A stretch of DNA of 64,000 bases from Sipunculus nudus (Eukaryota; Annelida; Sipuncula; Golfingiida; Sipunculidae), in assembly GCA_026874595.1 (NCBI GenBank), contig CM049308.1, positions 96,520,624-96,584,623 on the forward strand, written 5' to 3'. Below are positions 8,826 through 59,773 of this stretch, one piece after another. Below the pieces are notes generated by a model. The model saw only the letters and a program-made list of their open reading frames with translations. It did not search any database and had not been told where the DNA came from. The stretch's first letter is position 1. Every line of letters begins with the position of its first letter. A program made the position numbers and the translations under genes.

Positions 8826-9540
8826 TACAGGTGGCACCATTAGTCTGCAGAAACCGATGAAATATTCCATGACAAATATCCATGCAAAGAATCATGGTGA
8901 TCAATGCATAAGTTGTTCAGATACTTGAGCTTTTGTGTCAAATTTTTCATTTTTCTCGTGGGGGCGGGGGTGTATTTCGGAGCCCCATAGCTTGAAGAAT
9001 ATGGGTAACAGAGACCTAATTCCCAGTTTCCATGGAGTCTTCTCATGGACCTCTCTGGATGTAAAGTTAGAAGATTCCAGGTCAAGCAGTTACGATTTGT
9101 GCCCTGTTAACAAATGACCACATCTTTAAAGGTCTCAAAAATGGAGAGAAAAATCGTAAAAAAATAAAAAAAATACAGGTGGCGCCACCAATCTGCAGAA
9201 TCTGTTGAAACACTCCATGATCAATATCCATGCAATGAAACATGGTGATCAATGCCTAAGTTGTTCAGATACTTGAGCTTTTGTATCAAATTTTTTATTA
9301 TTCTGGGGGGTACTTCGGAGCCCAACAGCTTAAAGAATATGGGTAACAGAGACCTAATTCCCGGTTTCCATGGAGACTTTTCATAGACCTCTCTGGATGT
9401 AAATTAAGAAGATTCCAGGTAAAGCTGTTACAATTTGTGCCCTGTTAACAGATGACCACATCTTTAAAGGTCTCAAAAATAAAAAAAAAAATCGTAAAAA
9501 ATAAAAAAAGGTAAAGGTGGCGCCACCAGTTTGCAGAATC
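8826..9540 (+). repeat. ~336-bp monomer array, left part
   Basis: Two consecutive monomers start at GGTGGCACCATTAG (about 8831) and GGTGGCGCCACCAA (about 9179). A third starts at about 9517 and breaks off after some 25 bp, where the tRNA-like composite begins. Monomer sequence resumes at 10437 at a later phase, so roughly 150 bp of the third monomer is missing and the interruption is not a clean insertion. Confidence 0.7.
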
Positions 9541-12068: not shown

Positions 12069-12148
12069 CTGACTGACAGTGCCGATGTTAGACCTCAACC
12101 AAGTTGGATCAAGATCTTTTATGTTGGTGCCATCCACCTTCACCACAC
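12069..12148 (-). CDS. ABCB10: ABCB10-like exon: NBD, Walker A to Q-loop
   Basis: This 80-bp exon of a mitochondrial-type half ABC transporter encodes VVKVDGTNIKDLDPTWLRSN followed by IGTVSQ. That is the stretch between Walker A and the Q-loop of the nucleotide-binding domain, and the last codon is the Q-loop glutamine. The minus-strand acceptor is CTCAG at 12150-12149 and the donor is CAG/GTAGG at 12069/12068. The entry phase matches the previous exon (one nucleotide carried over) and it leaves in phase 0. The DLDPTWLRS and IGTVSQ wording is typical of ABCB10. The next exon should start with the residues after the Q-loop; I could not find it in 1-12068. A pearl/HINE-type hairpin end lies 27 bp into the following intron. 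Confidence 0.88.
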
Positions 12149-12628: not shown

Positions 12629-12835
12629 CTGAATCTGGGTCATAAAATCGTAACAGTAGAGAAGCGAGAGTGGACTTCCCAGAACCACTTGATCCGACCA
12701 CAGCCATCACAGAGCCCTGAGGGACAGTCAGACTCAATCCAGAAAATATAGGAATATCTTTTCTAGTTGGATAGCTGAAACTGATATCACTAAACTCAAT
12801 GGTCCCAGCTAGGTCTGTATGGGGGATAACACCAC
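12629..12835 (-). CDS. ABCB10: ABCB10-like exon: start of NBD with Walker A
   Basis: This 207-bp exon encodes the start of the ATP-binding domain. In order it shows a linker strand (TIEFSDISFSYP), the A-loop tyrosine in FSYPTR that stacks on the adenine, and the Walker A motif GSSGSGKST that binds the ATP phosphates. It ends in LLLRFYDPDSG, the usual text after Walker A. The acceptor is TTTCAG at 12837-12836 and the donor TCAG/GTACAG at 12629/12628. It enters and leaves in phase 1, matching its neighbours. Walker A is intact, so nothing suggests a dead domain. In the family, two such half-transporters dimerise in the mitochondrial inner membrane and hydrolyse ATP on the matrix side. Confidence 0.93.
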
Positions 12836-19739: not shown

Positions 19740-20930
19740 AAAAATGTGTAAACTTTTAAAACTAGAATACGGGTAACCGACAAGTGACTACATGTATCTG
19801 CCAAAATCGGATAGTGAGGCATGGATTGAGTGGCAAGGGGAAATAGAGTGAGGTATGTTGCATATTAGCATGGATGTCTGCAGCCTAAATGTGTATGTAG
19901 GTTGTGCCACCTACCACAAATCCAGAAAGCTGTCCAAGTTGTATACACCTGCAAAATTTTAGGCAGAAAAGTCAAACCACTACATGTATATGAGCCATTT
20001 TTGCCCATGGCAGACAAACAGACAAACACTGTGCAAAAATCTTTGCAGGTAACCCTTCCAGTTTTGTGTATGATAAAGACCTATGTGAGATCTAAACACA
20101 TGCACAATTTTGGCCCAATCGGTCAAATGGTTCCTGAGATATGAGCTTGGATGTGTCCAGCGTTAACTAGAATGTAGGTGGCGCCACCTGTCATAAAATC
20201 AAGAAAGCTGTCCACGATGTATAAACCTGCAAAATTTTAGGCAGTTATGTCGAACCACTACAGAGAAATGAGTAATTTTAGGCCACGGCAGACTAACAGA
20301 CAGACACTGTGCAAACATTGTTACAGGTGGCACCACCATTGTTTGTGTATGTTACAGAGCTATCAAAGGGCTACATTTGTATAAATTTTATTTCCTGATC
20401 GGTCAAACAGTTCCCGAGATATAAGCTTGGATGTCATCAGCGTGAACGTGAATGTAGGTGGCGCCACCTGTCATAAAATCAAGAAAGCTATCCTGGATGT
20501 ATTCACATGACGAATTTCAGGTGAATTAGTCAATTCACTGCAGAGATATGAGTGATTTTAACCCAAGGCAGATGAACAGATGGACACTGTGCAAACATGG
20601 TTACAGGTGGCGCCACCATTTTTTGTGTATGTTATAAAGCAATCCAAGGGCTACATTTGTATCAATTTTATTTCCTGATCGGTCAAACGGTTCCCGAGAT
20701 ATGAGGGTTTATGAGTGGAAACAGACCCACAAATGGACACTGGATAGAGAGGAAAGGTCAGAGGTCAATGCAAATTGGTTAGGCACCAGTTCACATGTGA
20801 CCCGATAATAGGTGTAAGTTTGGGAAAAATCGGTCCATTAGTCTCCGAGGAGCTCTCTGGAAACGAACGCCCCTGCAGCGGAGGAACTTGGTCAAAAACA
20901 TAGTATCCGCAAAACTTCGTTTTGGTGGAT
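19740..20930 (+). repeat. ~277-292-bp monomers inside the 6.1-kb element
   Basis: Same family as 5490-6640. TGTCATAAAATC recurs near 20190 and 20470, and GGTGGCGCCACC or close variants occur near 20175, 20327, 20457 and 20607. Confidence 0.65.
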
Positions 20931-20935
20931 ACAAA

Positions 20936-23900: not shown

Positions 23901-25596
23901 ATTTGTACCCTGTTGACAGATAACTACATCCTTAAAGGTCTCAAAAATGGAGAAAACAATTCGTGAACATTGAAAAATACAGGTGGCGCCACCAGTCTGC
24001 ACAAACTGATGAAACATCTCATGATCAATATGTATGTCGAAAATCATGACCATCAGTGATGTAGTTAATGAGATATTGAAGTTTTTGTATGAAATTTTTG
24101 ACTATTCTGGGGGGTAATTTTGGGCCCCATAGCTCGAAGGATATGGGTAACAGAGACCTAATTTCTGGTTTCCATGGAGACTTTTCATAGGTCTCTCAGT
24201 GTGTCGAAAATGAAGATTCTAGGTCCAGTCATTACGATTTGTGCCACGCTAACAGATGACAGCATCCTCAAAGGTCTCAAAAATAGAGGAAAAAATCGTA
24301 AAAAATCAAACTGTACAGGTGGCGCCACCAGTCTGCAGGAACTGATCTAACATCTCATGATCAATATGTATGCCAAAAATGAAGACCATCAGTGATGTAG
24401 TTATTGAGATATTGAAGTTTTTGTATGAAATTTTTTACTATTCTGGGTGGTATTTTGGGGCCCCATAGCTCAAAGGATATGGGTAACAGAGACCTAATTT
24501 CTGGTTTCCATGGAGACTTATCATGGGTCTCCCTGTGTGTCAAGAACGAAGATTCTAGGTCCAGTCGTTACGATTTGTACCCTGTTGACAGATAACTACA
24601 TCCTTAAAGGTCTCAAAAATGGAGAAAACAATTCGTGAACATTGAAAAATACAGGTGGCGCCACCAGTCTGCACAAACTGATGAAACATCTCATGATCAA
24701 TATGTATGTCGAAAATCATGACCATCAGTGATGTAGTTAATGAGATATTGAAGTTTTTGTATGAAATTTTTGACTATTCTGGGGGGTAATTTTGGGCTCC
24801 ATAGCTCGAAGGATATGGGTAACAGAGACCTAATTTCTGGTTTCCATGGAGACTTTTCATAGGTCTCTCAGTGTGTCGAAAATGAAGATTCTAGGTCCAG
24901 TCGTTACGATTTGTGCCACGCTAACAGATGACAGCATCCTCAAAGGTCTCAAAAATAGAGGAAAAAATCTTAAAAAATCAAACAGTACAGGTGGCGCCAC
25001 CAGTCTGCAGGAACTGATCGAACATCTCATGATCAATATGTATGCCAAAAATGAAGACCATCAGTGATGTAGTTATTGAGATATTGAAATTTTTGTATGA
25101 AATTTTTTACTATTCTGGGGGGTACTTTGGGGCCCCATAGCTCAAAGGATATGGGTAACAGAGACCTTATTTCTGGTTTCCAAGGAGATTTTTCATGGAC
25201 CTCTCAGTGTGTCAAGAATTAAGATTCTAAGTCCAGTCTTTATGATTTGTGCCTTGTTAACAGATGTTCACATTTTTAAAGGTCTCAAAAATAGAGAAAA
25301 AAATTCGTAAAAAATCGAAAAATACAGGTGGCGCCACCAGTCTGCAGGAAGTGATGTAACATCTCATGATCAATATGTATGCCAAAAATCATGACCATCA
25401 GTCAAGTAGTTAATGAGATATTGAAGTTTTTGTATGAAATTTTTGACTTTTCTGGGGGGTACTTTGGGGCCACATAGCTGGAAGGATATGGGTAACAGAG
25501 ACCTAATTTCTGGTTTCCAAGGAGATTTTTTATGGACCTCTCAGAATCCCAAGTTACAAGGTTCTAGGTCCAGCGGTTACGATTTGTGCCTGGTTA
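20936..25596 (+). repeat. ~336-bp satellite array with a 672-bp higher-order repeat
   Basis: Monomers start at GGTGGCGCCACC or variants near 20941, 21283, 21629, 21966, 22302, 22638, 22974, 23310, 23646, 23982, 24318, 24654, 24990 and 25327. From 21966 to 25326 two monomer types alternate (CTGCACAAACTGATGAAAC and CTGCAGGAACTGAT), giving five dimers of 672 bp that are almost identical. Monomers outside this block are clearly diverged, so the dimer expanded recently. Confidence 0.9.
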
Positions 25597-25700
25597 ACGG
25601 ACGGACAGACGGACAGACGGACGGACGGACAGACGGACAGACGGACGACGGACAAAGAGTGATCGCTATAGCTCAGATGACTTTCAGTCAGCTGAGCTAA
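25597..25700 (+). repeat. ACGG/ACAG tract and 3' hairpin of the element
   Basis: A tetranucleotide tract of ACGG with ACAG variants occupies about 25597-25651. A hairpin follows at 25669-25699: TAGCTCAG pairs with CTGAGCTA, and an inner TGACT pairs with AGTCA around a 3-base loop. The same layout ends the elements at 3015, 11517, 12039, 18037 and 28153. Confidence 0.8.
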
Positions 25701-29226: not shown

Positions 29227-32200
29227 AACTAATCCCCACATCACAGACATACACAACTAATCCCCATCACAGCAACACACACAATCCCCATCACAGACAT
29301 ACACAACTAATCCCCACATCACACACATACACACACAATCCCCATCACAGACATACACACATAATCCCCATCACAGACATACACACACAATCCCCATCAC
29401 AGACATACACACATAATCCCCATCACAGACATACATAACTAATCCCCACATCACAGACATACACATATAATCCCCATCACAGACATACACAACTAATCCC
29501 CATCACAGACATACACACACAATCCCCATCACAGACATACACACATAATCCCCATCACAGACATACACACACTATCCCCATCACAGACATACACACACTA
29601 TCCCCATCACAGACATACACACACAATCCCCACATCTCACACATACACACACAATCCCCACATCTCACAGACATACACACATAATCCCCATCACAGACAT
29701 ACACACATAATCCCCATCACAGACATACACACACAATCCCCATCACAGACATACACACATAATCCCCATCACAGACATACATAACTAATCCCCACATCAC
29801 AGACATACACACATAATCCCCATCACAGACATACACAACTAATCCCCATCACAGACATACACACACAATCCCCATCACAGACATACACAACTAATCCCCA
29901 TCACAGACATACACACACAATCCCCATCACAGACATACACACATAATCCCCATCACAGACATACACACACTATACCCATCACAGACATACACACACAATC
30001 CCCATCACAGACATACACACATAATCCCTATCACAGACATACACACAATCCCCATCATAGACATACACACACAATCCCCATCACAGACATACACACAATC
30101 CCCATCACAGACATACACACACTATCCCCATCACAGACATACACACATAATCCCCATCACAGACATACATAACTAATCCTCACATCTCAGACATACACAC
30201 ACAATCCCCATCACAGACATTCACACATAATCCCTATCACAGACATACACACAATCCCCATCACAGACATACACACACAATCCCCATCACAGACATACAC
30301 ACACAATCCCCATCACAGACATACACACACAATCCCCATCACAGACATACACACATAATCCCCATCACAGACATACACACACAATCCCCATCACAGACAT
30401 ACACACATAATCCCCAATACAGACATACATAACTTATCCCCACATCACAGACATACACACATAATCCCCTTCACAGACATACACAACTAATCCCCATCAC
30501 AGACATACACACACAATCCCCATCACAGACATACACACACTATCCCCATCACAGACATACACACACAATCCCCATCACAGACATACACAACTAATCCCCA
30601 CATCTCACACATACACACACAATCCCCATCACAGACATACACACATAATCCCCATCACAGACATACACACACAATCCCCATCACAGACATACACACATAA
30701 TCCCCATCACAGACATACATAACTAATCCCCACATCACAGACATACACACATAATCCCCATCACAGACATACACAACTAATCCCCATCACAGACATACAC
30801 ACACAATCCCCATCACAGACATACACAACTAATCCCCATCACAGACATACACACAAAATCCCCATCACAGACATACACACATAATCCCCATCACAGACAT
30901 ACATAACTAATCCCCACATCACAGACATACACACATAATCCCCACATCACAGACATACACAACTAATCCCCATCACAGACATACACACACAATCCCCATT
31001 ACAGACATACACACAATCCCCATCACAGACATACACACACAAGCCCCATCACAGACATAAAAACATAATTCCCATCACAGACATACACACAATCCCCATC
31101 ACAGACATACACACACAATCCCCATTACAGACATACACACAATCCCCATCACAGACATACACACACTATCCCCATCACAGACATACATACATAATCCCCA
31201 TCACAGACATACATAACTAATCCTCACATCTCAGACATACACACACAATCCCCATCACAGACATTCACACATAATCCCTATCACAGACATACACACAATC
31301 CCCATCATAGACATACACACACAATCCCCATCACAGACATACACACATAATCCCCATCACAGACATACACACACAATCCCCATTACAGACATACACACAA
31401 TCCCCATCACAGACATACACACATAATCCCCATCACAGACATACATAACTAATCCTCACATCTCAGACATACACACACAATCCCCATCACAGACATTCAC
31501 ACATAATCCCTATCACAGACATACACACAATCCCCATCACAGACATACACACACAATCCCCATCACAGACATACACACACAATCCCCATCACAGACATAC
31601 ACAAACAATCCCCATTACAGACATACACACAATCCCCATCACAGACATACACACACTATCCCCATCACAGACATACACACATAATCCCCATCACAGACAT
31701 ACATAACTAATCCTCACATCTCAGACATACACACACAATCCCCATCACAGACATTCACACATAATCCCTATCACAGACATACACACAATCCCCATCACAG
31801 ACATACACACACAATCCCCATCACAGACATACACACACAATCCCCATCACAGACATACACACACAATCCCCATCACAGACATACACACATAATCCCCATC
31901 ACAGACATACATAACTAATCCCCACATCACAGACATACACACACAATCCCCATCACAGACATACACACACAATCCCCATCACAGACATACACACAATCCC
32001 CATCACAGACATACACACACAATCCCCATCACAGACATACACACATAATCCCCATCACAGACATACACACACAATCCCCATCATAGACATACACACACAA
32101 TCCCCATCACAGACATACACACACAATCCCCATTACAGACATACACACAATCCCCATCACAGACATACACACACTATCCCCATCACAGACATACACACAC

Positions 32201-34350
32201 AATCCCCATCCCAGACATACACACACAATCCCCATGACAGACATAAACAACTAATCTCCATCACAAACATACACACACAATCCCCATCACAGACATACAC
32301 ACACAATCCCCATCTCAGCAACACACAGAATCCCCATCACAGACATACATAACTATTCCCCACATCACAGACATACACACACAATCCCCATCACAGACAT
32401 ACACACATTATCTCCATCACAGATATACACAACTAATCCACACATCACAGACATACACACACAATCCCCATCACAGACATACACAACTAATCCCCACATC
32501 ACAGACATACACAACTAATCCCCATCTCAGCAACACACACAATCCCCATCACAGACATTCACAACTAATCCCCATCTCAGACATACACACACAATCCCCA
32601 TCACAGACATACACACACAATCCCCATCACAGACATACACAACTAATCCCCACATCACAGACATACACAACTAATCCCCATCTGAGAAACACACACAATC
32701 CCCATTATAGACATACACAACTAATCCCCACATCACAGACATACACAACTAATCCCCATCTCAGCAACACACACAATCCCCATCACAGACATACACAACT
32801 AATCCCCATCTCAGACATACACAACTAATCCCCATCTCAGCAACACACACAATCCCCATCACAGACATTCACAACTAATCCCCATCTCAGACATACACAC
32901 ACAATCCCCATCACAGACATACACACACAATCCCCATCACAGACATACACAACTAATCCCCACATCACAGACATACACAACTAATCCCCATCTGAGAAAC
33001 ACACACAATCCCCATTATAGACATACACAACTAATCCCCACATCACAGACATACACAACTAATCCCCATCACAGACATACACACACAATCCCCATCACAG
33101 ACATACACAACTAATCCCCACATCACAGACATACACAACTAATCCCCATCTCAGCAACACACACAATCCCCATCACAGACATACACAACTAATCCCCATC
33201 TCAGACATACACACACAATCCCCATCACAGACATACACACACAATCCCCATCACAGACATTCACAACTAATCCCCACATCACAGACATACACAACTAATC
33301 CCCATCTGAGAAACACACACAATCCCCATTATAGACATACACAACTAATCCCCACATCACAGACATACACAACTAATCCCCATCTCAGCAACACACACAA
33401 TCCCCATCACAGACATTCACAATTAATCCCCATCACAGACATACACAACTAATCCCCATCACAGACATACACACACAATCCCCATCACAGACATACACAC
33501 ACAATCCCCATCACAGACATTCACAACTAATCCCCACATCACAGACATACACAACTAATCCCCATCTCAGCAACACACACAATCCCCATTATAGACATAC
33601 ACACACAATCCCCATCACAGACATACACACACAATCCCCATTACAGACATACACACAATCCCCATCACAGACATACACACACTATCCCCATCACAGACAT
33701 ACACACAAAATCCCCACATCTTACACATACACACATAATCATCACATCACAGACATACACACATATAACCCCACATCACAGACATATACACATATATACC
33801 CACATCACAGACATACACACATAATCATCACATCACAGACATTTATACCAAATTCCCACATCACAGACATACACACAAATTCCACATCAAGGACATATAC
33901 AAATATAACCCCACATCACAGACATACACACATATAACCCCACATCACAGACACACACACAAATTCCACATCACAGATATATACAAATATATCCCCACAT
34001 CACAGACATACACACCTTATCCCCACATCACAGACATACACACAAATTCCACATCACAGACATACACACAAAATCCCCACATCTCAGACATACACACATA
34101 ATCATCACATCACAGACATACACACATATAACCCCACATCACAGACACAAACACAAATTCCACATCACAGACATATACACATATATCCCCACATCACAGA
34201 CATACACACCTTATCCCCACATCACAGACATACACACATAATCATCACATCACAGACATTTATACCAAATTCCCACATCACAGACATACACACAAATCCC
34301 ACATCAAGGACATATACACATATAACCCCACATCACAGACATACACACAT
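29227..34350. repeat. 26-bp minisatellite, about 200 units
   Basis: Tandem units of the type ACATACACACAC then AATCCCCATCACAG, 26 bp with 20-30-bp variants, fill 5.1 kb with no unique spacers. The last 650 bp (33.7-34.35 kb) consist of a diverged subfamily with CATCACATCACAG and ATATAACCCC. The array starts exactly at the end of duplication copy B. On the minus strand its other edge lies only about 12 bp inside the intron from the donor of the 34458-34363 exon. Confidence 0.95.
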
Positions 34351-34362
34351 GGATTTTCTTAC

Positions 34363-34458
34363 CAGCTGTGGGGATGAGGGGGGGCTTGTCTATGAGTTCC
34401 CATATCCGGGAGCTGGCCCCGAGACCTCTGTTTAACTCTGTGTAGAAAGAGCTGAGTC
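34363..34458 (-). CDS. ABCB10: ABCB10-like exon: end of TM6 and linker to NBD
   Basis: This 96-bp exon encodes [20 protein letters not shown] then [11 protein letters not shown]. That is the end of the sixth transmembrane helix and the linker to the nucleotide-binding domain. LSSFY-EL--GLGA is a strong ABCB10 hallmark and differs from ABCB8 and from P-glycoprotein-type genes. The acceptor is CCTGCAG at 34460-34459 and the donor GCTG/GTAAGA at 34363/34362; phase is 1 in and 1 out. Only about 12 bp separate the donor from a 5.1-kb minisatellite. About 70 bp upstream of the acceptor lies a pearl/HINE-type 5' end (34529), so the exon is closely boxed in by repeats on both sides. Confidence 0.92.
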
Positions 34459-34528
34459 CTGCAGGAAAAGTTTGAAAAGAATCAAACACAAAAAAACTCT
34501 AAATCAACAGAATATAGCATTAGTTATC

Positions 34529-36165
34529 ACAAGTGACCCATGGGTCATGATGCTGTGCCAACTAATATGTCCTTGCACAGACAACTGATTAAGATAGGTG
34601 GCATCATATAGGTCACTGTGACCCAATTTCAGGTGTCTGGGGAGAATTTTTGAGGAACTCTCAGGATATCAAATCAGAAGATTCTGGGCCCCATGGTTAT
34701 GATTTGTGCCCTACTTTGGTATCAAATTTTCAATTATTCTGAGGGGTGCTTATAAGCCCCATAGCTCAGAAAATATGGGTAACAGAGACCTTAATTCAAG
34801 TTTCCAAGAAGACTTTTCACAGATCTCCCTGGATGTCAAGTCTAGGACCAATGATTACAATTTGAGCCCTGTTAAGGGACGATCGCATCTTTGAAGGTCT
34901 CATAAATAGGGAAAAAAGATGTGTTAAAATTTTTAAAATATTTAGGTGACACCACCAGTCTGCAGGAACTGATGAAACACTCCATGATGCATATGCATGC
35001 AAAGATTAATGCTGATCAATGCACTAGTTGTTCAGATACCAGAGCTTTTGTATCAAATTTTTAGTTATTCTTAGGGGTACTTCTGAGCCCCATAGCTCAC
35101 ACAATATGGGTGACAGAGACCTAATTTCAGGTTTCCAAGGAGACTTTTCATGGGCCTCCCAACATGTCAAGAAAGAAGATCCTAGGTCAAGTCTTTACGA
35201 TTTGTGCCCTGTTGTTAACAGAGGATGGCATCTTTTAAGGTCTCAAAAATAGATAAAAAAATTGATTAAAAAATCGAAAAAATACAGGTGGCACCACCAG
35301 TCTGCAGAAACAGATGAAACACTCCATGATCAATATCCATGCAAAGAATCATGGTGATCAATGCATTAGTTGTTCAAATATTTGAGCTTTTTTATCAAAT
35401 TTTCTATTATTCTGGGGGGAGGGGGGATAGAAGCCCCATAGCTCACAGGTTTTGGGTAAAAGAGACCTAATTCCAGGTTTCCAAGGAGACTTTTCATGGG
35501 CCTCCCTGCATGTCAAGACAGAAGATTCTTAGTCCAGGCATTAAGATTTGTGCCCTGTTAACAGACTGGTATCTTTTGAGGTCTTAAAAATAGAAAAAAA
35601 ATTGTAAAAAAATAGAAAAATAAAGATGGTGCCACCAGTCTGCAGACACCAATGTAACACCCCATGATCAATATCCATGCAAAAGATAATGTTGATAAAT
35701 GCATATATTGTTCGGATACTTGAGCTTTTGTATCAAATTTTTCATTATTCTGGGGGGGGGGGGGGGGTACTTCAGAGCCCCATAGCTTGAAGAATATTGG
35801 TAACAGTGACCTAATCTAGGTTTTCAATGAGACTTTTCATGGACCTATCTGGATGTAATGTTAGAAGATTCCAGGTCCAGCGTTTATGATTTTTGTGCCT
35901 TGTTAACAGATGACGGCATCTTTTAAGGTATAAGAATAGAGAAAAAATATTGTAAAAAAATTGAAAAAATACAGGTGGTGCCACCAGTCTGCAGAAACTG
36001 ATATAACACTCCATGATTAATATCCATGCAAAGAATCATGGTAATCAATGCTTTAGTTTTTCAGAAATTTGAGCTTTTGTATCAAATTTTTCATTATTCT
36101 GGGGGGTACTTTAAAGCTCCATAGCTTGAAGAATATGGGTAATAGAGACCTAATTCCACGTTTGC
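34529..36165 (+). repeat. Element 5' end followed by ~336-bp monomers
   Basis: The terminus ACAAGTGACCCATGGGTCA lies at 34529-34548. Diverged 336-bp monomers follow, with palindrome variants near 34945 (GGTGACACCACC), 35287, 35627 and 35973. A G-run of about 16 lies at 35752-35767. No 3' hairpin end follows; the series stops at the LINE fragment. Confidence 0.7.
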
Positions 36166-36700: not shown

Positions 36701-36811
36701 ATTTCCTAGTACAAGTCGCGACTTCTACAACAACTTTTATGGTACCACAAAGTATGCTTCTTCACAACAGACTCGCTCAAATGAACACAGAAGTATGCAA
36801 AACACTTTCTT

Positions 36812-39800
36812 ACAAACAGACACTCCATCTTATGTGAAGGAATGTGGATCACATGACTTACCTCCAATAGACACTCCCACATATGCTGCTTAGAGGAGGA
36901 ATGTGGATCACATGACTTACCTCAAACAGACACTCCCACATACACTGCGAAGAGGAGGAATGTGGATCACATGACTTACCTCCAATAGATACTCCCACAT
37001 ACGCTGTTTAGAGGAGGAATGTGGATCACATGACTTACCTCCAACAGACACTCCCACATACGCTGCGTTCAGGAGGAATGTGGATTACATGACTTACCTC
37101 CAAGAGACACTCCCACATACGCTGGGTAGAGGAGGAATGTGGATTACATGACTTACCTCCAAGAGACACTCAAACATACACAGCATAGAGGAAGAATGTG
37201 GATCACATGACTTACCTCCAACAGACACTCCCACAAACGCTGGGTAGAGGAGGAATGTGGATTACATGACTTACCTCCAAGAGACAATCCCACATACGCT
37301 GTATAGAGGAGGAATGAGGATTACATGACTTACCTCCAAGAGACACTCCCACATACGCTGCTTAGAGGAGGAATGTGGATCACATGACTTACCTCCAATA
37401 GACACTCCCACATACACTGTGTAGAGGAGGAATGTGGATCACATGACTTAACTCCAATAGACACTCCCACATATGCTGCGTAGAGGAGGAATGAGGATTA
37501 CATGACTTACCTCCAAGAGACACTCCCACATACGCTGCTTAGAGGAGGAATGTGGATCACATGACTTACCTCCAATAGACACTCCCACATACACTGTGTA
37601 GAGGAGGAATGTGGATCACATGACTTAACTCCAATAGACACTCCCACATATGCTGCGTAGAGGAGGAATGTGGATCACATGACTTAACTCCAATAGACAC
37701 TCCCACATACACTGCGAAGAGGAGGAATGTGGATCACATGACTTACCTCCAATAGATACTCCCACATACGCTGTTTACAGGAGGAATGTGGATCACATGA
37801 CTTACCTCCAACAGACACTCCCACATACACTGCATAGAGGAGGAATGTGGATCACATGACTTACCTCCAACAGACACCTAATCTAGGTTTTCAATGAGAC
37901 TTTTCATGGACCTATCTGGATGTAATGTTAGAAGATTCCAGGTCCAGCGTTTATGATTTTTGTGCCTTGTTAACAGATGACGGCATCTTTTAAGGTATAA
38001 GAATAGAGAAAAAATATTGTAAAAAAATTGAAAAAATACAGGTGGTGCCACCAGTCTGCAGACACTGATATAACACTCCATGATTAATATCCATGCAAAG
38101 AAGGATTACATGACTTACCTCCAATAGACACTCCCACATACGCTGCTTAGAGGAGGAACGTGGATCACATGACTTACCTCCAATAGACACTCCCACATAC
38201 ACTGTGTAGAGGAGGAATGAGGATCACATGACTTACCTCCAACAGACACTCCCACATACACTGTGTGGAGGAGGAATGTGGATCACATGACTTACCTCCA
38301 ATTGACACTCCCACATACACTGTGTGGAGGAGGAATGTGGATCACTTGACTTACCTCCAATTGACACTCCCACATACACTGTGTGGAGGAGGAATGTGGA
38401 TCACATGACTTACCTCCAACAGACACTCCCACATACACTGTGTGGAGGAGGAATGAGGATCACATGACTTACCTCCAACAGACACTCCCACATACACTGT
38501 GTGGAGGAGGAATGTGGATCACATGACTTACCTCGAATTGACACTCCCACATACACTGTGTAGAGGAGGAATGAGGATCACATGACTTACCTCCAACAGA
38601 CACTCCCACATACACTGTGTGGAGGAGGAATGTGGATCACATGACTTACCTCCAATTGACAATCCCACATACACTGTGTAGAGGAAGAATGTGGATCACA
38701 TGACTTACCTCCAATTGACACTCCCACATACACTGTGTAGAGGAGGAATGTGGATCACATGACTTACCTCCAATAGACACTCCCACATACACTGTGTAGA
38801 GGAGGAATGAGGATCACATGACTTACCTACAACAGACACTCCCACATACACTGTGTGGAGGAGGAATGTGGATCACATGACTTACCTTCAATTGACACTC
38901 CCACATTCACTGTGTAGAGGAGGAATGTGGATCACATGACTTACCTCCAATTGACACTCCCACATACACTGTGTAGAGGAGGAATGTGGATCACATGACT
39001 TATCTCCAATAGACACTCCCACATACGCTGTGTAGAGGAGGAATGTGGATCACATGACTTACCTCCAATAGACACTCCCACATACACTGTGTAGAGGAGG
39101 AATGTGGATCACATGACTTACCTCCAATAGACACTCCCACATACACTGTGTAGAGGAGGAATGAGGATCACATGACTTACCTACAACAGACACTCCCACA
39201 TACACTGTGTGGAGGAGGAATGTGGATCACATGACTTACCTTCAATTGACACTCCCACATTCACTGTGTAGAGGAGGAATGTGGATCACATGACTTACCT
39301 CCAATTGACACTCCCACATACACTGTGTAGAGGAGGAATGTGGATCACATGACTTATCTCCAATAGACACTCCCACATACGCTGTGTAGAGGAGGAATGT
39401 GGATCACATGACTTACCTCCAATAGACACTCCCACATACACTGTGTAGAGGAGGAATGTGGATCACATGACTTATCTCCAATAGACACTCCCACATACGC
39501 TGTGTAGAGGAGGAATGTTGATCACAAGACTTACCTCCAATAGACACTCCCACATACACTGTGTGGAGGAGGAATGTGGATCACATGACTTACCTCCAAT
39601 TGACACTCCCACATACACTGTGTAGAGGAGGAATGAGGATCACATGACTTACCTCCAATAGACACTCCCACATACACTGTGTAGAGGAGAAATGTGGATT
39701 ACATGACTTACCTCCAAGAGACACTCCCACATACGCTGTGTAAAGGAGGAATGTGGATCACATGACTTACCTCCAATTGACACTCCCAAATACACTTTGT

Positions 39801-42800
39801 AGAGGAGGAATGTGGATCACATGACTTACCTCCAATTGACACTCCCACATACACTGTGTAGAGGAGGAATGTGGATCACATGACTTACCTCCAATTGACA
39901 CTCCCACATACACTGTGTAGAGGAGGAATGTGGATCACATGACTTACCTCCAATAGACAGTCCCACATACACTGTGTAGAGGAGGAATGTGGATCACATG
40001 ACTTACCTCCAATTGACACTCCCACATACACTGTGTAGAGGAGGAATGTGGATCACATGACTTACCTCCAATAGACAGTCCCACATACGCTGCGTAGAGG
40101 AGGAATGTGGATCACATGACTTACCTCCAATTGACACTCCCACATACACTGTGTAGAGGAGGAATGTGGATCACATGACTTACCTCCAATTGACACTCCC
40201 AAATACACTTTGTAGAGGAGGAATGTGGATCACATGACTTACCTCCAATTGACACTCCCACATACACTGTGTAGAGGAGGAATGTGGATCACATGACTTA
40301 CCTCCAATTGACACTCCCACATACACTGTGTAGAGGAGGAATGTGGATCACATGACTTACCTCCAATAGACAGTCCCACATACACTGTGTAGAGGAGAAA
40401 TGTGGATTACATGACTTACCTCCAAGATACACTCCCACATACACTGTGTAGAGGAGGAATGTGGATTACATGACTTACCTCCAATTGACACTCCCACATA
40501 CACTGTGTAGAGGAAGAATGTGGATTACATGACTTACCTCCAATTGACACTCCCACATACACTGTGTAGAGGAGAAATGAGGATAACATGACTTACCTCC
40601 AATAGACACTCCCAGATACCCTGTGTAGAGGAAGAATGTGGATCACATGACTTACCTCCAATTGACACTCCCACATACACTGTGTAGAGGAGGAATGTGG
40701 ATCACATGACTTACCTCCAATAGACACTCCCACATACGCTGTGTAGAGGAAGAATGTGGATCACATGACTTACCTCCAATTGACACTCCCACATACACTG
40801 TGTAGAGGAGGAATGAGGATCACATGACTTACCTCCAACAGACACTCCCACATACACTGTGTAGAGGAAGAATGTGGATCACATGACTTACCTCCAAGAG
40901 ACACTCCCACATACACTGTGTAGAGGAAGAATGTGGATCACATGACTTACCTCTAACAGACACTCGAACATACACTGTGTAGAGGAGGAATGTGGATCAC
41001 ATGACTTATCTCCAACAGACACTCCCACATACACTGTGTAGAGGAGGAATGTGGATTACATGACTTACCTCCAATTGACACTTCCACATACGCTGCATAG
41101 AGGAGGAATGTGGATCACATGACTTACCTCCAATTGACACTTCCACATACACTGTGTAGAGGAGAAATGTGGATTACATGACTTACCTCCAAGAGACACT
41201 CCCACATACACTGTGTAGAGCAGGAATGTGGATCACATGACTTACCTCCAATTGACACTTCCACATACGCTGCATAGAGGAGGAATGTGGATTACATGAC
41301 TTACCTCCAATTGACACTCCCACATGTGCTGTGTAGAGGAGGAATGTGGATCACATGACTTACCTCCAAGAGACACTCCCACATATGCTGCGTAGAGGAG
41401 GAATGAGGATTACATGACTTACCTCCAATAGACACTCCCACATAACCTGTGTAGAGGAAGAATGTGGATCACATAACTTACCTCCAATTGACACTCCCAC
41501 ATACACTGCGTAGAGGAGGAATGTGGATCACATGACTTACCTCCAATAGACACTCCCACATACGCTGTGTAGAGGAGGAATGAGGATCACATGACTTACC
41601 TCCAATTGACACTCCCACATACACTGTGTAGAGGAAGAATGTGGATCACATGTCTTACCTCCAATAGACACTCCCACATGCGCTGTGTAGAGGAGGAATG
41701 AGGATCACATGACTATCCTCCAATAGACACTCCCACATACACTGTGTAGAGGAAGAATGTGGATCACATGACTTACCTCCAATAGACACTCCCACATACA
41801 CTGTGTAGAGGAGGAATGAGGATCACATGACTTACCTCCAATAGACACTCCCACATGCGCTGTGTAGAGGAGGAATGTGGATCACATGACTTACCTCCAA
41901 GAGACACTCCCACATACCCTGTGTAGAGGAGGAATGTGGATCACATGACTTACCTCCAACAGACACTCCCACATACACTGTGTGGAGGAGGAATGTGGAT
42001 CACATGACTTACCTCGAATTGACACTCCCACATACACTGTGTAGAGGAGGAATGAGGATCACATGACTTACCTCCAACAGACACTCCCACATACACTGTG
42101 TGGAGGAGGAATGTGGATCACATGACTTACTTCCAACAGACACTCCCACATACCCTGTGTAGAGGAGGAATGTGGATCACATGACTTATCTCCAACAGAC
42201 ACTCCCACATACACTGTGTAGAGGAAGAATATGGATCACATGACTTACCTCCAACAGACACTCCCACATACACTGTGTAGAGGAGGAATGTGGATCACAT
42301 GACTTATCTCCAACAGACACTCCCACATACACTGTGTAGAGGAAGAATGTGGATCACATGACTTACCTCCAATAGACACTCCCACATACACTGTGTAGAG
42401 GAAGAATGTGGATCACATGACTTACCTCCAACAGACACTCCCACATACACTGTGTAGAGGAGGAATGTGGATCACATGACTTATCTCCAACAGACACTCC
42501 CACATACACTGTGTAGAGGAAGAATGTGGATCACATGACTTACCTCCAACAGACACTCCCACATACACTGTGTAGAGGAAGAATGTGGATCACATGACTT
42601 ACCTCCAACAGACACTCCCACATACACTGTGTAGAGGAAGAATGTGGATCACATGACTTACCTCCAACAGACACTCCCACATACACTGTGTAGAGGAGGA
42701 ATGTGGATCACATGACTTACCTCCAATTGACACTCCCACATACACTGTGTAGAGGAGGAATGTGGATCACATGACTTATCTCCAACAGACACTCCCACAT

Positions 42801-45800
42801 ACACTGTGTAGAGGAAGAATGTGGATCACATGACTTACCTCCAACAGACACTCCCACATACACTGTGTAGAGGAGGAATGTGGATCCCATGACTTACCTC
42901 CAATTGACACTCCCACATACACTGTGTAGAGGAGGAATGTGGATCACATGACTTACATCCAATTGACACTCCCACATACGCTACGTAGTGGAGGAATGTG
43001 GATCACATGACTTACCTCCAATAGACACTCCCACATACAAAGTGTAGAGGAAGAATGTGGATCACATGACTTGCCTCCAACAGACACTCCCACATACACT
43101 GTGTAGAGGAAGAATGTGGATCACATGACTTACCTCCAACAGACACTCCCACATACACTGTGTGGAGGAGGAATGTGGATCACATGACTTACTTCCAACA
43201 GACACTCCCACATACCCTGTGTAGAGGAGGAATGTGGATCACATGACTTATCTCCAACAGACACTCCCACATACACTGTGTAGAGGAAGAATATGGATCA
43301 CATGACTTACCTCCAACAGACACTCCCACATACACTGTGTAGAGGAGGAATGTGGATCACATGACTTATCTCCAACAGACACTCCCACATACACTGTGTA
43401 GAGGAAGAATGTGGATCACATGACTTACCTCCAACAGACACTCCCACATACACTGTGTAGAGGAAGAATGTGGATCACATGACTTACCTCCAACAGACAC
43501 TCCCACATACACTGTGTAGAGGAGGAATGTGGATCACATGACTTATCTCCAACAGACACTCCCACATACACTGTGTAGAGGAAGAATGTGGATCACATGA
43601 CTTACCTCCAACAGACACTCCCACATACACTGTGTAGAGGAGGAATGTGGATCACATGACTTACCTCCAACAGACACTCCCACATACACTGTGTAGAGGA
43701 GGAATGTGGATCACATGACTTATCTCCAACAGACACTCCCACATACACTGTGTAGAGGAAGAATGTGGATCACATGACTTACCTCCAACAGACACTCCCA
43801 CATACACTGTGTAGAGGAGGAATGTGGATCCCATGACTTACCTCCAATTGACACTCCCACATACACTGTGTAGAGGAGGAATGTGGATCACATGACTTAC
43901 ATCCAATTGACACTCCCACATACGCTACGTAGTGGAGGAATGTGGATCACATGACTTGCCTCCAACAGACACTCCCACATACACTGTGTAGAGGAAGAAT
44001 GTGGATCACATGACTTACCTCCAATAGACACTCCCACATACACTGTGTGGAGGAGGAATGTGGATCACATGACTTACATCCAATTGACACTCACACATAC
44101 GCTACGTAGAGGAGGAATGTGGATCACATGACTTACCTCCAATAGACACTCCCACATACGCTGTGTAGAGGAGGAATGTGGATCACATGACTTACCTCCA
44201 ACAGACACTCCCACATACACTGTGTAGAGGAAGAATGTGGATCACATGACTTACCTCCAATTGACACTCCCACATACACTGCGTAGAGGAGGAATGTGGA
44301 TCACATGACTTACTCCAACAGACACTCCCACATACACTGTGTAGAGGAAGAATGTGGATTACATGACTTACCTCCAATAGGCACTCCCACATACGCTGCG
44401 TAGAGGAGGAATTTGGATTACATGACTTACCTCCAATAGACACTCCCACATACGCTGTGTAGAGGAGGAATGTGGATCACATGACTTACCTACAATAGAC
44501 ACTCCCACAAACCCTGTGTGGAGGAGGAATGTGGATCACATGACTTACCTCCAACAGACACTCCCACATACGCTGTGTAGAGGAGGAATGTGGATCACAT
44601 GACTTACCTCCAAGAGACACTCCCACATACCCTGTGTAGTGGAAGAATGTGAATCACATGACTTACCTCCAATAGACACTCCCACATACCCTGTGTAGAG
44701 GAAGAATGTGGATTATATGACTTACCTCCAATAGACACTCCCACATACGCTGCGTAGAGGAGGAATTTGGATTACATGACTTACCTCCAACAGACACTCC
44801 AACATACACTGTGTAGAGGAAGAATGTGGATTACATGACTTACCTCCAATAGACACTCCCACATACGCTGCATAGAGGAGGAATTTGGATTACATGACTT
44901 ACCTCCAATAGACACTCCCACATACGCTGTGTAGAGGAGGAATGTGGATCACATGACTTACCTCCAACAGACACTCCCACATACGCTGTGTAGAGGAAGA
45001 ATGTGGATCACATGACTTACCTCCAACAGACACTCCCACATACACTGTGTAGAGGAGGAATGTGGATCACATGACTTACCTCCAATAGACACTCCCACAT
45101 ACGCTGCGTAGAGGAGGAATTTGGATTACATGACTTACCTCCAATAGACACTCCCACATACGCTGTGTAGAGGAGGAATGTGGATCACATGACTTACCTA
45201 CAATAGACACTCCCACATACCCTGTGTGGAGGAGGAATGTGGATCACATGACTTACCTCCAAGAGACACTCCCACATACGCTGTGTAGAGGAGGAATGTG
45301 GATCACATGACTTACCTCCAAGAGACACTCCCACATACACTGTGTAGTGGAAGAATGTGAATCACATGACTTACCTCCAATAGACACTCCCACATACCCT
45401 GTGTAGAGGAAGAATGTGGATTACATGACTTACCTCCAATAGACACTCCCACATACGCTGTGTAGAGGAGGAATTTTGGATTACATTACTTACCTCCAAC
45501 AGACACTCCCACATACACTGTGTAGAGGAAGAATGTGGATTACATGACTTACCTCCAATAGACAGTCCCACATACACTGTGTAGAGGAGGAATGTGGATC
45601 ACATGACTTACCTCCAACAGACACTCCCACATACGCTGTGTAGAGGAAGAATGTGGATCACATGACTTACCTCCAAGAGACACTCCCACATACACTGTGT
45701 AGAGGAGGAATGTGGATCACATGACTTACCTCCAACAGACACTCCCACATACACTGTGTAGAGGAGGAATGTGGATCACATGACTTACCTCCAAGAGACA

Positions 45801-46240
45801 CTCCTACATACACTGTGTAGAGGAGGAATGTGGATCACATGACTTACCTCCAATAGACACTCCCACATACACTGTGTAGAGGAGGAATGTGGATCACATG
45901 ACTTACCTCCAATAGACACTCCCACATACGCTGTGTAGAGGAGGAATGTGGATCACATGACTTACCTCCAAGAGACACTCCCACATACACTGTGTAGACG
46001 AGGAATGTGGATCACATGACTAACCTCCAAGAGACACTCCCACATACACTATGTAGAGGAGGAATTTGGATCACATGACTTACCTCCAACAGACACTCCC
46101 ACATACACTGTGTAGAGGAGGAATTTGGATCACATGACTTACCTCCAACAGACACTCCCACATACGGTGCTTAGAGGAGGAATGTGGATCACATGACTTA
46201 CCTCCAATAGATACTCCCACATACGCTGCGTAGAGGAGGA
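36812..46240 (-). repeat. 59-bp minisatellite made of an exon end plus splice donor, about 155 units
   Basis: Read on the minus strand, each 59-bp unit is 42 nt matching the last coding nucleotides of the 46337-46202 exon (TTCCTCCTCTACGCAGCGTA, then the codons for YVGVSIGG) plus 17 nt of intron (GTAAGTCATGTGATCCA). The unit boundary sits in CATTCCTCCTCTA, which occurs both in the exon and in the intron. Nearly every unit keeps GGAG/GTAAGT. About 9.4 kb, less a 226-bp patch, gives about 155 units. Most distal units carry the variants ACACAGTGTATG and TCAATTGGAG. Because 59 is not a multiple of 3, the frame changes from unit to unit. Confidence 0.95.
37877..38102 (+). repeat. 226-bp patch of 336-bp monomer inside the minisatellite
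   Basis: This block interrupts the 59-bp array and is practically identical to 35811-36036, about 2 kb away. The one difference seen is CAGACACTG against CAGAAACTG. Both junctions show only 2-3 bases of matching sequence and no transposon termini, so it looks like a templated filler from break repair or gene conversion. Confidence 0.85.
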
Positions 46241-46337
46241 ATGCAGAGAGGTCTCCCACCGTGATCTGAGACTCTGTCATCATCAGACCACCATAGTAAA
46301 ACACAGACAGAACTATCAGGTTTCCTGCCATACCAGT
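46202..46337 (-). CDS. ABCB10: ABCB10-like exon: TM5-TM6
   Basis: This 136-bp exon starts TGMAGNLIVLSVFYYGGLMM, continues with a TESQITVGDLSAF segment and ends LLYAAYVGVSIG. It covers transmembrane helix 5, the short outer loop with the conserved (M/I)TVG-LS-F text, and helix 6. The acceptor used is TTTTAG at 46339-46338 and the first donor GGAG/GTAAGT at 46202/46201; phase is 0 in and 1 out, fitting both neighbours. Two more copies of the acceptor lie at 21-bp steps upstream and about 155 copies of the donor downstream. Reading on past the first donor in frame meets TAA at 46082-46080. Use of the second or third donor shifts frame, so only the first donor gives a normal protein. Confidence 0.93.
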
Positions 46338-46386
46338 CTAAAATAAGAAAGTACCAGTCTAAAATGAGAAAGTTCCAGTCTAAAAC
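46329..46386 (-). repeat. Three 21-bp copies of the splice acceptor
   Basis: On the minus strand TTTTAG/ACTGG occurs three times, with AG at 46381-46380, 46360-46359 and 46339-46338. The spacing of 21 bp would keep the frame. In that frame, however, the next acceptor copy itself reads TAG, so use of either upstream acceptor puts a stop seven codons in. Confidence 0.85.
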
Positions 46387-56555: not shown

Positions 56556-56702
56556 TGATCCCCAGAAGATTCCTCTAGCCATGGCTTCCTTGTAGGATAA
56601 CTGCAGAACATCTTCAATGCGAGATTGATAGGATTTCAATTCTCTTTCCTCTTGGGCAAAGGCCCGTACTGTTCGAATATTACTGATCCTCTCTTCTGCC
56701 AC
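56556..56702 (-). CDS. ABCB10: ABCB10-like exon: intracellular loop 2 coupling region
   Basis: This 147-bp exon of 49 codons encodes VAEERISNIRTVRAFAQEER, then a helical stretch (SYQSRIEDVLQLSYKEA) and MARGIFWGS. The EER-SNIRTVRAF text is the second intracellular loop and coupling helix, which touches the nucleotide-binding domain of the partner subunit in ABC exporters. The acceptor is CATCAG at 56704-56703 and the donor TCA/GTATGT at 56556/56555; phase is 0 on both sides. The joined reading with the next exon (GIFWGS then TGMAGN) agrees with ABCB10 proteins. Confidence 0.93.
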
Positions 56703-56944
56703 CTGATGAAGAAAAACAGTACTTAAGGCCTTGTCCCTGACATTAGGTTTGGGTCACCTGGAACAGTTTCAATGTAGCATTCATGTTTCTGGTCAAAAGG
56801 ATTGTTCTAAGATATAGCAAATCAAAATAAGATAATAACAAGATAAGAACAGAAATACCAAAACTAGGAATTGGTACTAGAAGGATCAGTAGGTACGAAA
56901 AGTCAAGTTGACAAACCATAATAAAATAACAGCTGAGTCTCATC

Positions 56945-58186
56945 AGTGACATCTATGGTTTAACTAATTCCTTCTTGGACTAACAAATCAGTGACATTTG
57001 TGGTTTAACTTATTCTGTCTTGGGTAAACAAATCAGTGACATTTGTGGTTTAACTTGTTCTGTCTTGGATAAACAAATCAGTGACATCTGTGGTTTAACT
57101 TATTCTGTCTTGGGTAAACAAATCAGTGACATCTATGGTTAAACTTATTCCGTCTTGGATAAACAGATCAGTGACATTTGTGGTTTAACTTATTCTGTCT
57201 TGGGTAAACAAATCAGTGACATTTGTGGTTTAACTTATTCTGTCTTGGGTACACAAATCAGTGACATCTATGGTTAAACTTATTCCGTCTTTGGTAAACA
57301 TATCAGTGACATCTATGGTTAAATTTATTCCGTCTTGGATAAACAAATCAGTGACATTTGTGGTTTAACTTATTCTGTCTTGGGTAAACAAATCAGTGAG
57401 ATCTGTGGTTAACTTATTCTGTCTTGGATAAACAAATCAGTGACATCTGTGTTAACTTATTCCGTCTTGGGTAAACAAATCAGTGACATCTATGGTTAAA
57501 CTTAATCCGTCTTGGGTAAACATATCAGTGACATTTGTGGTTAACTTATTCTGTCTTGGGTAAACATATCAGTGACATCTGTGTTAACTTATTCCATCTT
57601 GGGTAAACAAATCAGTGACATCTATGGTTAAACTTATTCCGTCTTGGGTAAACATATCAGTGACATCTATGGTTAAACTTATTCCGTCTTGGGTAAACAA
57701 ATCAGTGACATCTATGGTTAAACTTATTCCGTCTTGGGTAAACAAATCAGTGACATCTGTGGTTAACTTATTATGTCTTGGGTGAACAAATCAGTGACAT
57801 TTGTAGTTAACTTATTCTGTCTTGGGTAAACAAAATACTGACATCTGTGCTTAACTTATTCCGTCTTGGGTATACAAATCAGTGCCATCTGTGGTTAACT
57901 TATTACGTCTTGGATAAACAAATCAGTGAGATCTGTGGTTAACTTATTCTGTCTTGGGTAAACAAAATAGTGACATCTGTGGTTAACTTATTCCGTCTTG
58001 GGTAAACAAATCAGTGACATCTGTGGTTAACTTATTCTGTCTTGGGTAAACAAATCAGTGACATCTGTGGTTAACTTATTCCGTCTTGGGTAAACAAATC
58101 AGTGACATCTATGGTTAAACTTATTTCATCTTGGATTAACAAATCAGTGACATTTATGGTTAAACTTATTCCTTCTTGGATTAATC
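56945..58186. repeat. 44-bp minisatellite, about 28 units
   Basis: Units of the type AACAAATCAGTGACATCTGT then GGTTAACTTATTCTGTCTTGGGTA recur through the 1.5-kb intron between the 58351-58217 and 56702-56556 exons. The array starts about 30 bp inside the intron from the donor of the first of these. Confidence 0.93.
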
Positions 58187-58216
58187 GTAATCCTATTATC
58201 TGATGCCTCCACCTAC

Positions 58217-58351
58217 CTGTGTAGCCTCTGCCAGAGAATCCTGGACATTTCTCGTAATTCTCCGAACATATCGACCATAAACAATGGACAGCAAAGCCAC
58301 AGGAGGAACAATACTCAATGCAATACTAGCCAGCTTGGGAGACATGTAAAA
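58217..58351 (-). CDS. ABCB10: ABCB10-like exon: TM4 and start of intracellular loop 2
   Basis: This 135-bp exon of 45 codons encodes FYMSPKLASIALSIVPPVAL, then LSIVYGRYVRRITRNVQDSL and AEATQ. It is the fourth transmembrane helix followed by the start of the second intracellular loop. The SPKLA--LS-VPPV and YGRY-R--T---QDSLA-ATQ patterns match ABCB10. The acceptor is TTTCAAG with AG at 58353-58352 and the donor ACAG/GTAGGT at 58217/58216; phase is 0 on both sides. It is the most 5' exon in the window. The upstream side of the intron is filled with 23-bp and 35-bp minisatellites to the window end, so the preceding exon lies beyond 64000. Confidence 0.93.
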
Positions 58352-58384
58352 CTTGAAAATAAAAAGAAAAAATAAGCACTGTAC

Positions 58385-58855
58385 AATCCACAGTATTATT
58401 TATGTAGAGTCCACAGCATTATGCATGTACAGTCCACAGCATTATATGTGTACAGTCCACAACATTACACATGTACAGTCCAAAGTATAAGATATGTACA
58501 GTGTACAGTATTAAATATGTACAGTCCACAGCATTATATGTGTACAGTCAACATTATTACATATGTACAGTCTACAACCTTACACATGTACAGTCCACAG
58601 TATTAGATATGTAGTCTACAGTATTACATATGTACAGTCCACAGCATTATATGTGTACAGTCAACATTATTACATATGTACAGTCCACAACCTTACACAT
58701 GTACAGTCCACAGTATTAGATATGTACAGTCCAAAGTTTTACACACGTACAGTCCACAACATTACATATGTACAGTCAACATTATTACATATGTACAGTC
58801 CACAACCTTACACATGTACAGTCCACAGTATTAGATATGTACAGTCTACAGTATT
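58385..58855. repeat. 23-bp minisatellite, block 1
   Basis: Units of the type GTACAGTCCACAACATTACACAT, 23 bp, begin about 33 bp from the acceptor of the 58351-58217 exon. Since 69 nt is a whole number of codons, long open frames without stops arise; they are not genes. Confidence 0.93.
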
Positions 58856-59143
58856 ACTGTCAACACATTACTGACCTCTGGTCATGGTGGCCTGTCAACA
58901 AATTACTGACCTCTGGTCATTGTGGTCTGTCAACACATCACTGACCTATGGTCATGGTGGTCTGTCAACACATCACTGACCTCTGGTCATGGTGTGCTGT
59001 CAGCACATCACTGTCCTCTGGTCATGGTGGTCTTTCAACACATCACTGACCTATGGTCATGGTGTGCTGTCAGCACATCACTGTCCTCTGGTCATGGTGG
59101 TCTTTCAACACATCACTGTCCTCTGGTCATGGTGGTCTGTCAA
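58856..59143. repeat. 35-bp minisatellite, block 1
   Basis: Units of the type CTGTCAACACATCACTGACC then TCTGGTCATGGTGGT. It lies between two 23-bp blocks. Confidence 0.9.
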
Positions 59144-59773
59144 CCACAGCATTATGCATGTACAGTCCACAGCATTATATGTGTACAGTCCACAACCTTA
59201 CACATGTACAGTCCAAAGTATAAGATATGTACAGTGTACAGTATTAAATATGTACAGTCCACAGCATTATATGTGTACAGTCAACATTATTACATATGTA
59301 CAGTCCTCAACCTTACACATGTACAGTCCACAGTATTAGATATGTACAGTCTACAGTATTACATATGTACAGTCAACAGCATTATGTGTACAGTCAACAT
59401 TATTACATATGTACAGTCCACAACCTTACACATGTACAGTCCACAGTATTAGATATGTACAGTCCACAGTATTACACATGTACAGTCCACAACATTACAT
59501 ATGTACAGTCAACATTATTACATATGTACAGTCCACAACCTTACACATGTACAGTCCACAGTATTAGATATGTACAGTCTACAGTATTACATATGTACAG
59601 TCCACAGCATTATATGTGTACAGTCAAAATTATTATATATGTACAGTCCACAGCATTATATATGTACAGTCCACAACATTACACATGTACAGTCCACAAC
59701 ATTACATATGTACAGTCCACAACATTACATATGTACAGTCCACAACATTACATATGTACAGTCCACAGTATTA
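59144..59773. repeat. 23-bp minisatellite, block 2
   Basis: Second block of the 23-bp unit, embedded in the 35-bp array with abrupt edges. Its unit order partly repeats that of block 1 (for instance the GTGTACAGTATTAAATATGT unit near 58500 and 59232), so it was probably copied from there. Confidence 0.9.

Follow-up and report, generated by a model that had tools for sequence, protein, structure and literature searches.

The window considered here is a 64,000-nucleotide stretch of the genome of Sipunculus nudus (C3:96520624-96584623), which lies on a 97.9-Mb contig of an assembly of 1.43 Gb in 153 contigs and carries, on its reverse strand, exons of the ABC transporter gene ABCB10. One of these exons runs directly into a minisatellite with a 59-bp unit that joins the last 42 nt of the exon to the first 17 nt of the following intron, i.e. 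the splice donor itself is repeated in tandem. The features of the locus are as follows:

56556..56702, minus strand: exon 5' of the array-bearing ABCB10 exon, 147 nt, phase 0-0, limits read from the sequence
46331..46385, minus strand: tandem duplication of the acceptor, 21-bp unit, 2.6 copies of TTTTAG/ACTGG, from Tandem Repeats Finder (TRF)
46202..46337, minus strand: array-bearing ABCB10 exon, 136 nt, final 42 nt inside the repeat unit, match to PDB 3zdq
36845..46243, minus strand: 59-bp minisatellite, 154 clean units in the intron following the exon's own copy (46243-46185), from TRF and wrap-around alignment
46196..46201, minus strand: exon-proximal donor GTAAGT, of the donors tested the only one to keep the frame open into the following exon
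37877..38096 (approximate), minus strand: interruption of the array, similar to the ~340-bp repeat nearby, seen by reading the sequence
36804..36844, minus strand: diverged partial unit or original intron, CATTCCT in common with the exon
34363..34458, minus strand: following ABCB10 exon, 96 nt, phase 1-1, acceptor AG 34460-34459, donor GTAAGA at 34362
12629..12835, minus strand: Walker A exon (GSSGSGKST), limits read by eye
12069..12148, minus strand: likely next exon (VVKVDGTNIKDLDPTWLRSNIGTVSQ), limits read by eye

When exons 46337-46202 and 34458-34363 are joined, their translation matches human ABCB10 across 71 residues (PDB 3zdq, E 6.2e-25), and a search of the genome with the same protein at E <= 0.001 returned only two matches, namely these two exons. 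The original prediction for this DNA had placed the array-bearing exon and the acceptor at 34460 in ABCB10, which agrees with the homology, the open frames and the single locus. Exon 56702-56556 (acceptor TTCATCAG, donor GTATGT, translation VAEERISNIRTVRAFAQEE...GIFWGS) is putatively assigned to ABCB10 on the basis of gene order and motifs, and exons 12835-12629 and 12148-12069 presumably belong to it as well. ABCB10 looks intact across the five exons seen.

The array starts 42 nt ahead of the end of the exon, which closes with GAG/GTAAGT, and repeats on to position 36845. TRF reports 159.1 copies with a period of 59 and 91% matches (36838-46243), and a wrap-around alignment gives 160 rows (46243-36804). 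Six rows were set aside, i.e. the exon's own copy, four rows at the interruption (38100-37848) and the partial end (36844-36804), leaving 154 clean intronic units in 92 distinct forms, so that the 9.4-kb minisatellite of about 155 copies of exon end plus donor is confirmed. The consensus unit comprises a pyrimidine tract ending in CAG, then 24 nt of exon tail, then GTAAGT and 11 nt of intron. GT is intact in 136/154 clean units, GTAAGT in 134/154 and the exact GAG/GTAAGT in 122/154, and GGAGGTAAGT occurs 120 times in the array; the claim that almost every unit keeps GGAG/GTAAGT thus applies to the GTAAGT core, but is somewhat overstated for the longer motif. Within the 9,399 bases of the array GTAAGT is present 136 times in sense orientation, including the exon's own donor and one set-aside row, and never in antisense orientation, as compared to 12 sense and 8 antisense occurrences in the remaining 54,601 bases of the window.

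The unique intron past the final unit opens with CATTCCTTCACATAAG and has CATTCCT (7 nt) in common with the exon, which fits a start by short-repeat-mediated duplication. That the array arose from a tandem duplication spanning the exon-intron junction is supported as predicted, and so is a microhomology at the unit boundary, although of the 13-nt match stated for exon and intron only these 7 nt are seen past the last unit. The array resembles a donor-bearing intronic variable number of tandem repeats (VNTR) of the ABCA7 type in that it directly flanks a coding exon, includes its donor and repeats a sense GT in most units. Other classes were considered and rejected. In a genome search with three units all matches (72/72) fell inside the ABCB10 array, which rules out an introner or another transposed element as far as such a search, which may miss repeats, can tell. 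Intron gain by AGGT tandem duplication does not apply, as the copies run into an existing intron, at whose end another ABCB10 exon follows, and a recursive splice site (ratchet point) would require a zero-length exon instead of the 24 nt that separate AG and GT in the consensus.

Only one of the many donors appears to be able to support the protein. Translation into the next exon, carried out for the GTAAGT donors in clean units, showed none of the 134 downstream donors to be productive: 132/134 lie past a stop, and donors 2 and 3 shift the frame. The in-frame stop at 46082-46080 and both frame shifts had been predicted correctly and, as no downstream donor is productive (0/134), the exon-proximal donor must win, which had been concluded before.

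The consensus unit also contains TTCCTCCTCTACACAG, an acceptor-like tract derived from the exon itself, whose AG is kept in 151/154 units, and AG and GT are both present in 133/154. The 24-nt piece from this AG to the donor is frame-neutral and stop-free in 126/131 units having AG and GTAAGT. However, such pieces are similarly stop-free in all phases (124, 129 and 128 of 131), giving no sign of coding use. At the other end of the exon the acceptor is present three times in 21-bp steps, with AGs ending at 46380, 46359 and 46338, and either upstream AG (46380 or 46359) would lead to an in-frame TAG. Thus, splice sites are duplicated at both ends of one exon, and exon 46337-46202 has an open frame only from the exon-proximal site on each side. 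The original prediction had overlooked both features, i.e. the acceptor-like tract of the units and the threefold acceptor.

Neither ranking of windows nor comparison with base-matched columns gave a significant signal of selection on the splice sites of the array, be they donors or acceptors. Of all 59 two-column windows 45 are equally low or lower in variation than the GT columns, and base-matched random picks are equally low or lower in a fraction of 0.77 for GT and 0.25 for the whole GTAAGT; for the nine-base donor this fraction is 0.17, which is not significant. The acceptor region of the unit is not conserved, as 47/59 windows are equally low or lower in variation among the distinct forms, and the 24-nt pieces show no phase difference that would indicate coding selection. 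Moreover, a change that destroys the donor, G+1A, has spread to 12 units. The recurrence of identical units is highest at lags 3, 6 and 16 (7-9%, mean 2.6% over lags 1-59, without a shuffle control), as expected from minisatellite turnover.

Arrays of this kind are not restricted to ABCB10. The assembly was scanned for three AGGTAAGT words 40-70 nt apart and for three CAGGTAAGT words 16-46 nt apart, and 22 other distinct donor-word arrays were taken among the matches listed, which reach C2:37.2 Mb for AGGTAAGT and C5:2.3 Mb for CAGGTAAGT. In 16/22 arrays the 5'-most copy ends an apparent coding exon, as judged by eye. Eight of these 16 exons are backed by homology, one has a weak PH domain match (0.016) and the other seven were recognized by reading alone. 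The eight donor arrays with homology are:

L002: exon of a TPR protein, match 4e-9
L004: exon of a PI4-kinase, match 5.1e-9
L007: exon of a CRIP-like LIM protein, match 2.8e-6
L009: exon of CHTF18, match 1.6e-11
L010: exon of PKA RI-alpha, match 8.6e-25
L011: exon of a 3-hydroxyacyl-CoA dehydrogenase, match 1.5e-5
L017: exon with an ABC membrane domain (ABC transporter), match 3.4e-5
L025: exon with a thioredoxin domain, match 1.1e-10

No exon was seen at L001, L003, L006, L019, L020 and L021, the piece analysed at L006 possibly stopping short of the 5' end of the array, and a PDB search with the exon at L024, which may resemble PRKDC, gave no match. In 14/17 arrays, i.e. the 16 exon-anchored ones and ABCB10, the unit includes at least 10 nt of exon tail (<=2 mismatches), the script finding 5, 2 and 0 nt at L002, L008 and L023. 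Frequent use of later donors should favour units whose length is a multiple of three; this is the case in 6/17 arrays, with 5.7 expected by chance, and splicing from the second donor would be productive in 4/17 (L016 and L023 have an uncertain period). In the AGGTAAGT scan 8/11 arrays look exon-anchored in ~148 Mb, about one tenth of the assembly, which by extrapolation suggests some tens of exon-anchored arrays genome-wide for this word and spacing alone.

Acceptors are captured as well. A scan for three TTTTGCAG words at spacings of 40-70 nt found 149 hits; the 3' flank was read for 20/22 arrays among the matches listed, and three candidate exons were subjected to PDB searches. The last array copy opens a USP39 exon (1.2e-15), the unit visibly containing the exon's first bases, and a WRAP53/TCAB1 exon (2.4e-5), and a PSMD1 exon (4.7e-5) begins 119 nt past the last TTTTGCAG, next to a unit-like stretch (loci L111, L123 and L124 for the USP39 and WRAP53 exons and the array near the PSMD1 exon). 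Pfam returned one weak match for ten candidate acceptor-side exons (0.061), itself USP39, and several other acceptor-side flanks are exon-like by reading only. As similar arrays on donor and acceptor sides occur in other genes, the capture is peculiar neither to ABCB10 nor to donors. A class of exon-edge minisatellites exists in this genome, and the ABCB10 array is one of several splice-site arrays in a repeat-rich genome and a sign that such minisatellites recur in it.

The ABCB10 array is a genuine, large splice-donor minisatellite and is apparently passive. We consider it probable that it represents an exon-edge duplication that was expanded passively by minisatellite turnover, with slight leakage to decay-prone transcripts and without a selected role. 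It may have started with a tandem duplication of a short stretch, i.e. the end of the ABCB10 exon and the first 17 nt of the intron, and CATTCCT, as a short repeat in exon and intron, could have helped this first step. Growth to about 155 copies would then have taken place on the intron side via ordinary minisatellite turnover, for which the structure of the array and the recurring forms speak, whereas the copy belonging to the exon is coding and for this reason stays intact. The exon-proximal donor would mostly be used because it is nearest to the exon's acceptor and is transcribed first. As translation from a later donor meets a frame shift or a stop, such transcripts would be lost or decay, and the cost of using later donors may rise with array length, as inferred from ABCA7. 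The ABCB10 array would thus be one instance of a recurrent outcome, i.e. minisatellites that overlap or abut exon edges at donors and acceptors alike.

Several observations weigh against a purely passive process. Among the distinct forms the variation of the nine donor columns lies below the mean (0.023 vs 0.055), 9/59 windows being as low, though not significantly so. Three-word hits are more frequent for the donor words than for their reversed versions, with 1010 vs 664 for AGGTAAGT and 400 vs 144 for CAGGTAAGT. In the last of three exon-versus-background scores, which had a softer acceptor term and used 40 genome-wide single AGGTAAGT sites for comparison, 11/22 arrays but only 7/40 singles reached p<=0.05 (one-sided Fisher 0.009), and at p<=0.1 the numbers were 15/22 and 8/40 (2.4e-4). 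At face value, arrays at exon ends thus exceed what a uniform neutral process predicts, but this comparison is biased.

The three score versions were each devised after seeing the previous one. With the first (codon model from 18 ABC exon pieces) p<=0.05 was reached by 6/22 arrays and 2/22 singles (two-sided Fisher 0.24), with the second (average protein composition, acceptor demanded) by 9/22 and 3/22 (one-sided Fisher 0.044), and the third shows no difference at p<=0.01 (4/22 arrays vs 6/40 singles). The test leans towards arrays because the 5'-most donor-like copy was picked by eye in L002, L008, L009 and L024, and true exons escape the models, L025 having a score of 0. From 62 hits 40 singles were kept after leaving out 11 copies of one dispersed repeat, the window's own array, 1 duplicate, 4 hits in two look-alike pairs and 5 that were not fetched. 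Homology coverage was uneven: among singles it comprised Pfam searches with 10 open reading frames from the 22 earlier ones, which gave no match below 0.01 (best 0.019). As for a possible enrichment of donor words in arrays, the controls disagree: AGGTAAGT and its permuted version differ little (1010 vs 1070 hits, 11 vs 11 distinct arrays among the matches listed), and the reversed control word is even commoner than the donor word (67,855 vs 45,924). A preference of arrays for exon ends is therefore only suggestive. It is conceivable, but rather doubtful, that exon edges are preferred birthplaces of minisatellites here, that dozens to hundreds of genes bear donor- or acceptor-seeded arrays, that the proximal site is routinely picked among up to ~150 near-identical competitors and that array length sets a small leak into decay-prone transcripts.

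The original prediction had offered noisy splicing, which may occur, and a U1 small nuclear ribonucleoprotein (snRNP) sink and a length-dependent regulator as possible roles; as selected functions the latter two are without support, given GT columns that vary like base-matched ones, the G+1A form in 12 units and the arrays elsewhere. In the regulator model additional donors would divert splicing from the proximal one or lead to skipping of the exon that follows, and array length would in this way tune the ABCB10 level. In ABCA7 longer VNTRs go along with more skipping of exon 19 and lower expression, and retention of one unit can occur (PMC5954066), and the downstream ABCB10 donors tested would be non-productive. 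The retained-unit isoform of ABCA7, however, is unchanged with length (PMC5954066) and the ABCB10 donors bear no sign of selection, making such a regulator unlikely. As a U1 snRNP platform, the many GTAAGT motifs would bind U1 and shield the long intron from premature polyadenylation or act as a sink. The 136 sense and 0 antisense motifs in 9.4 kb would suit this idea, but tandem copying accounts for this strand bias, conservation of the donor columns does not exceed base-matched chance, and arrays also arise at acceptors, which lack a U1 site of this kind and so argue against a donor-specific role. We thus regard a U1 platform as highly improbable.

A cryptic microexon array would use the acceptor-like tract, the 24 nt and the donor of a unit in phase 1-1, yielding VYVGVSIG-like inserts of eight residues or nested intron removal. 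It would draw on the preserved AG (151/154, with GT 133/154) and on the frame-neutral, stop-free pieces in 126/131 units having AG and GTAAGT. Yet the pieces are just as open in the other phases, the acceptor region is without conservation, and adjacent units leave just 35 nt from donor to acceptor, which is generally too short for an animal intron. Moreover, the insert would strike a putative transmembrane helix, so that we give this possibility very little weight. Finally, long tandem arrays can be mis-assembled, and the copy number may be inexact, but 92 distinct forms among 154 units, the internal interruption, the 97.9-Mb contig, flanking exons with open frames and splice sites and the single ABCB10 locus speak against an assembly artefact or a pseudogene; either is hardly to be expected.

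The ABCB10 array has one close precedent among the sources found. In PMC5954066 the human ABCA7 intron-18 VNTR is described as beginning with the exon-18 donor GT and having a 25-bp unit, with one allele measuring 9,711 bp. Like the ABCB10 array it is an intronic minisatellite right after an exon of an ABC transporter gene, each unit repeats the donor and the next donor shifts the frame. In contrast, the ABCA7 array is described there as starting at GT, whereas the ABCB10 unit, with 59 bp, adds 42 nt of exon and the acceptor-like tract; the genes belong to different ABC subfamilies, and splicing and length effects were measured in ABCA7, whereas the ABCB10 array is known here from its sequence. 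By its structure, the ABCB10 array is the same kind of object as this human disease repeat, and an extreme case of it.

AGGT tandem duplication also underlies a model of intron gain, in which splice signals are copied by a duplication that spans an exon junction or lies next to it; the potato RdRp case crossed an intron-exon boundary, and multiple 24-bp exonic duplications in fission yeasts are cited with it (PMC4974935). Unlike there, the far more numerous ABCB10 copies sit in an existing intron, no new intron results and the protein need not change. CeRep25B of C. elegans, found near alternative exons, is a mostly intronic minisatellite statistically tied to splicing choices, but its units carry regulatory oligomers and cluster along two chromosomes, whereas the ABCB10 unit is the splice site itself at one junction (PMC4039745). 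Splice sites in units are not described in the passages covered of a paper on earthworm intronic minisatellites (PMC12783039). In open literature, followed by titles and the starts of abstracts and with most subscription papers outside this scope, no genome with many minisatellites or VNTRs at splice sites was found among the papers listed, a weak negative.

With more than 130 copies of the same GTAAGT core after the right one, the ABCB10 array is a natural test of splice-site choice, and exon-edge arrays in general are a natural test of the cost of minisatellite growth at such places. Should their frequency match what the sampling indicates, this genome would offer many independent ABCA7-like cases with varied unit lengths, and gene prediction may introduce spurious exon ends there.

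Other tandem repeats lie in the same window. A 26-bp minisatellite of ~195 copies (29228-34349) begins 13 nt past the donor of exon 34458-34363, the donor being absent from its consensus unit. Upstream of exon 56702-56556 (56942-64000) three more minisatellites with 45-bp, 23-bp and 35-bp units are found, of which the 35-bp array extends to the window edge. Additionally, repeats of ~280-340 bp with the palindromic core GGTGGCGCCACC (or GGTGGCACCACC) occur at 5623-6356, 8821-9542, 19862-25598 and 34714-36163, forming head-to-tail arrays with 13.8 copies at 20933-25598. Elsewhere in the assembly (G000), contigs C61-C137, of which C61 comprises 2.17 Mb, contain uninterrupted bacterial-type ABC transporter genes, and one frame of 596 amino acids matches with equal score at 9 places on 8 contigs, which suggests symbionts or contaminants in several versions.

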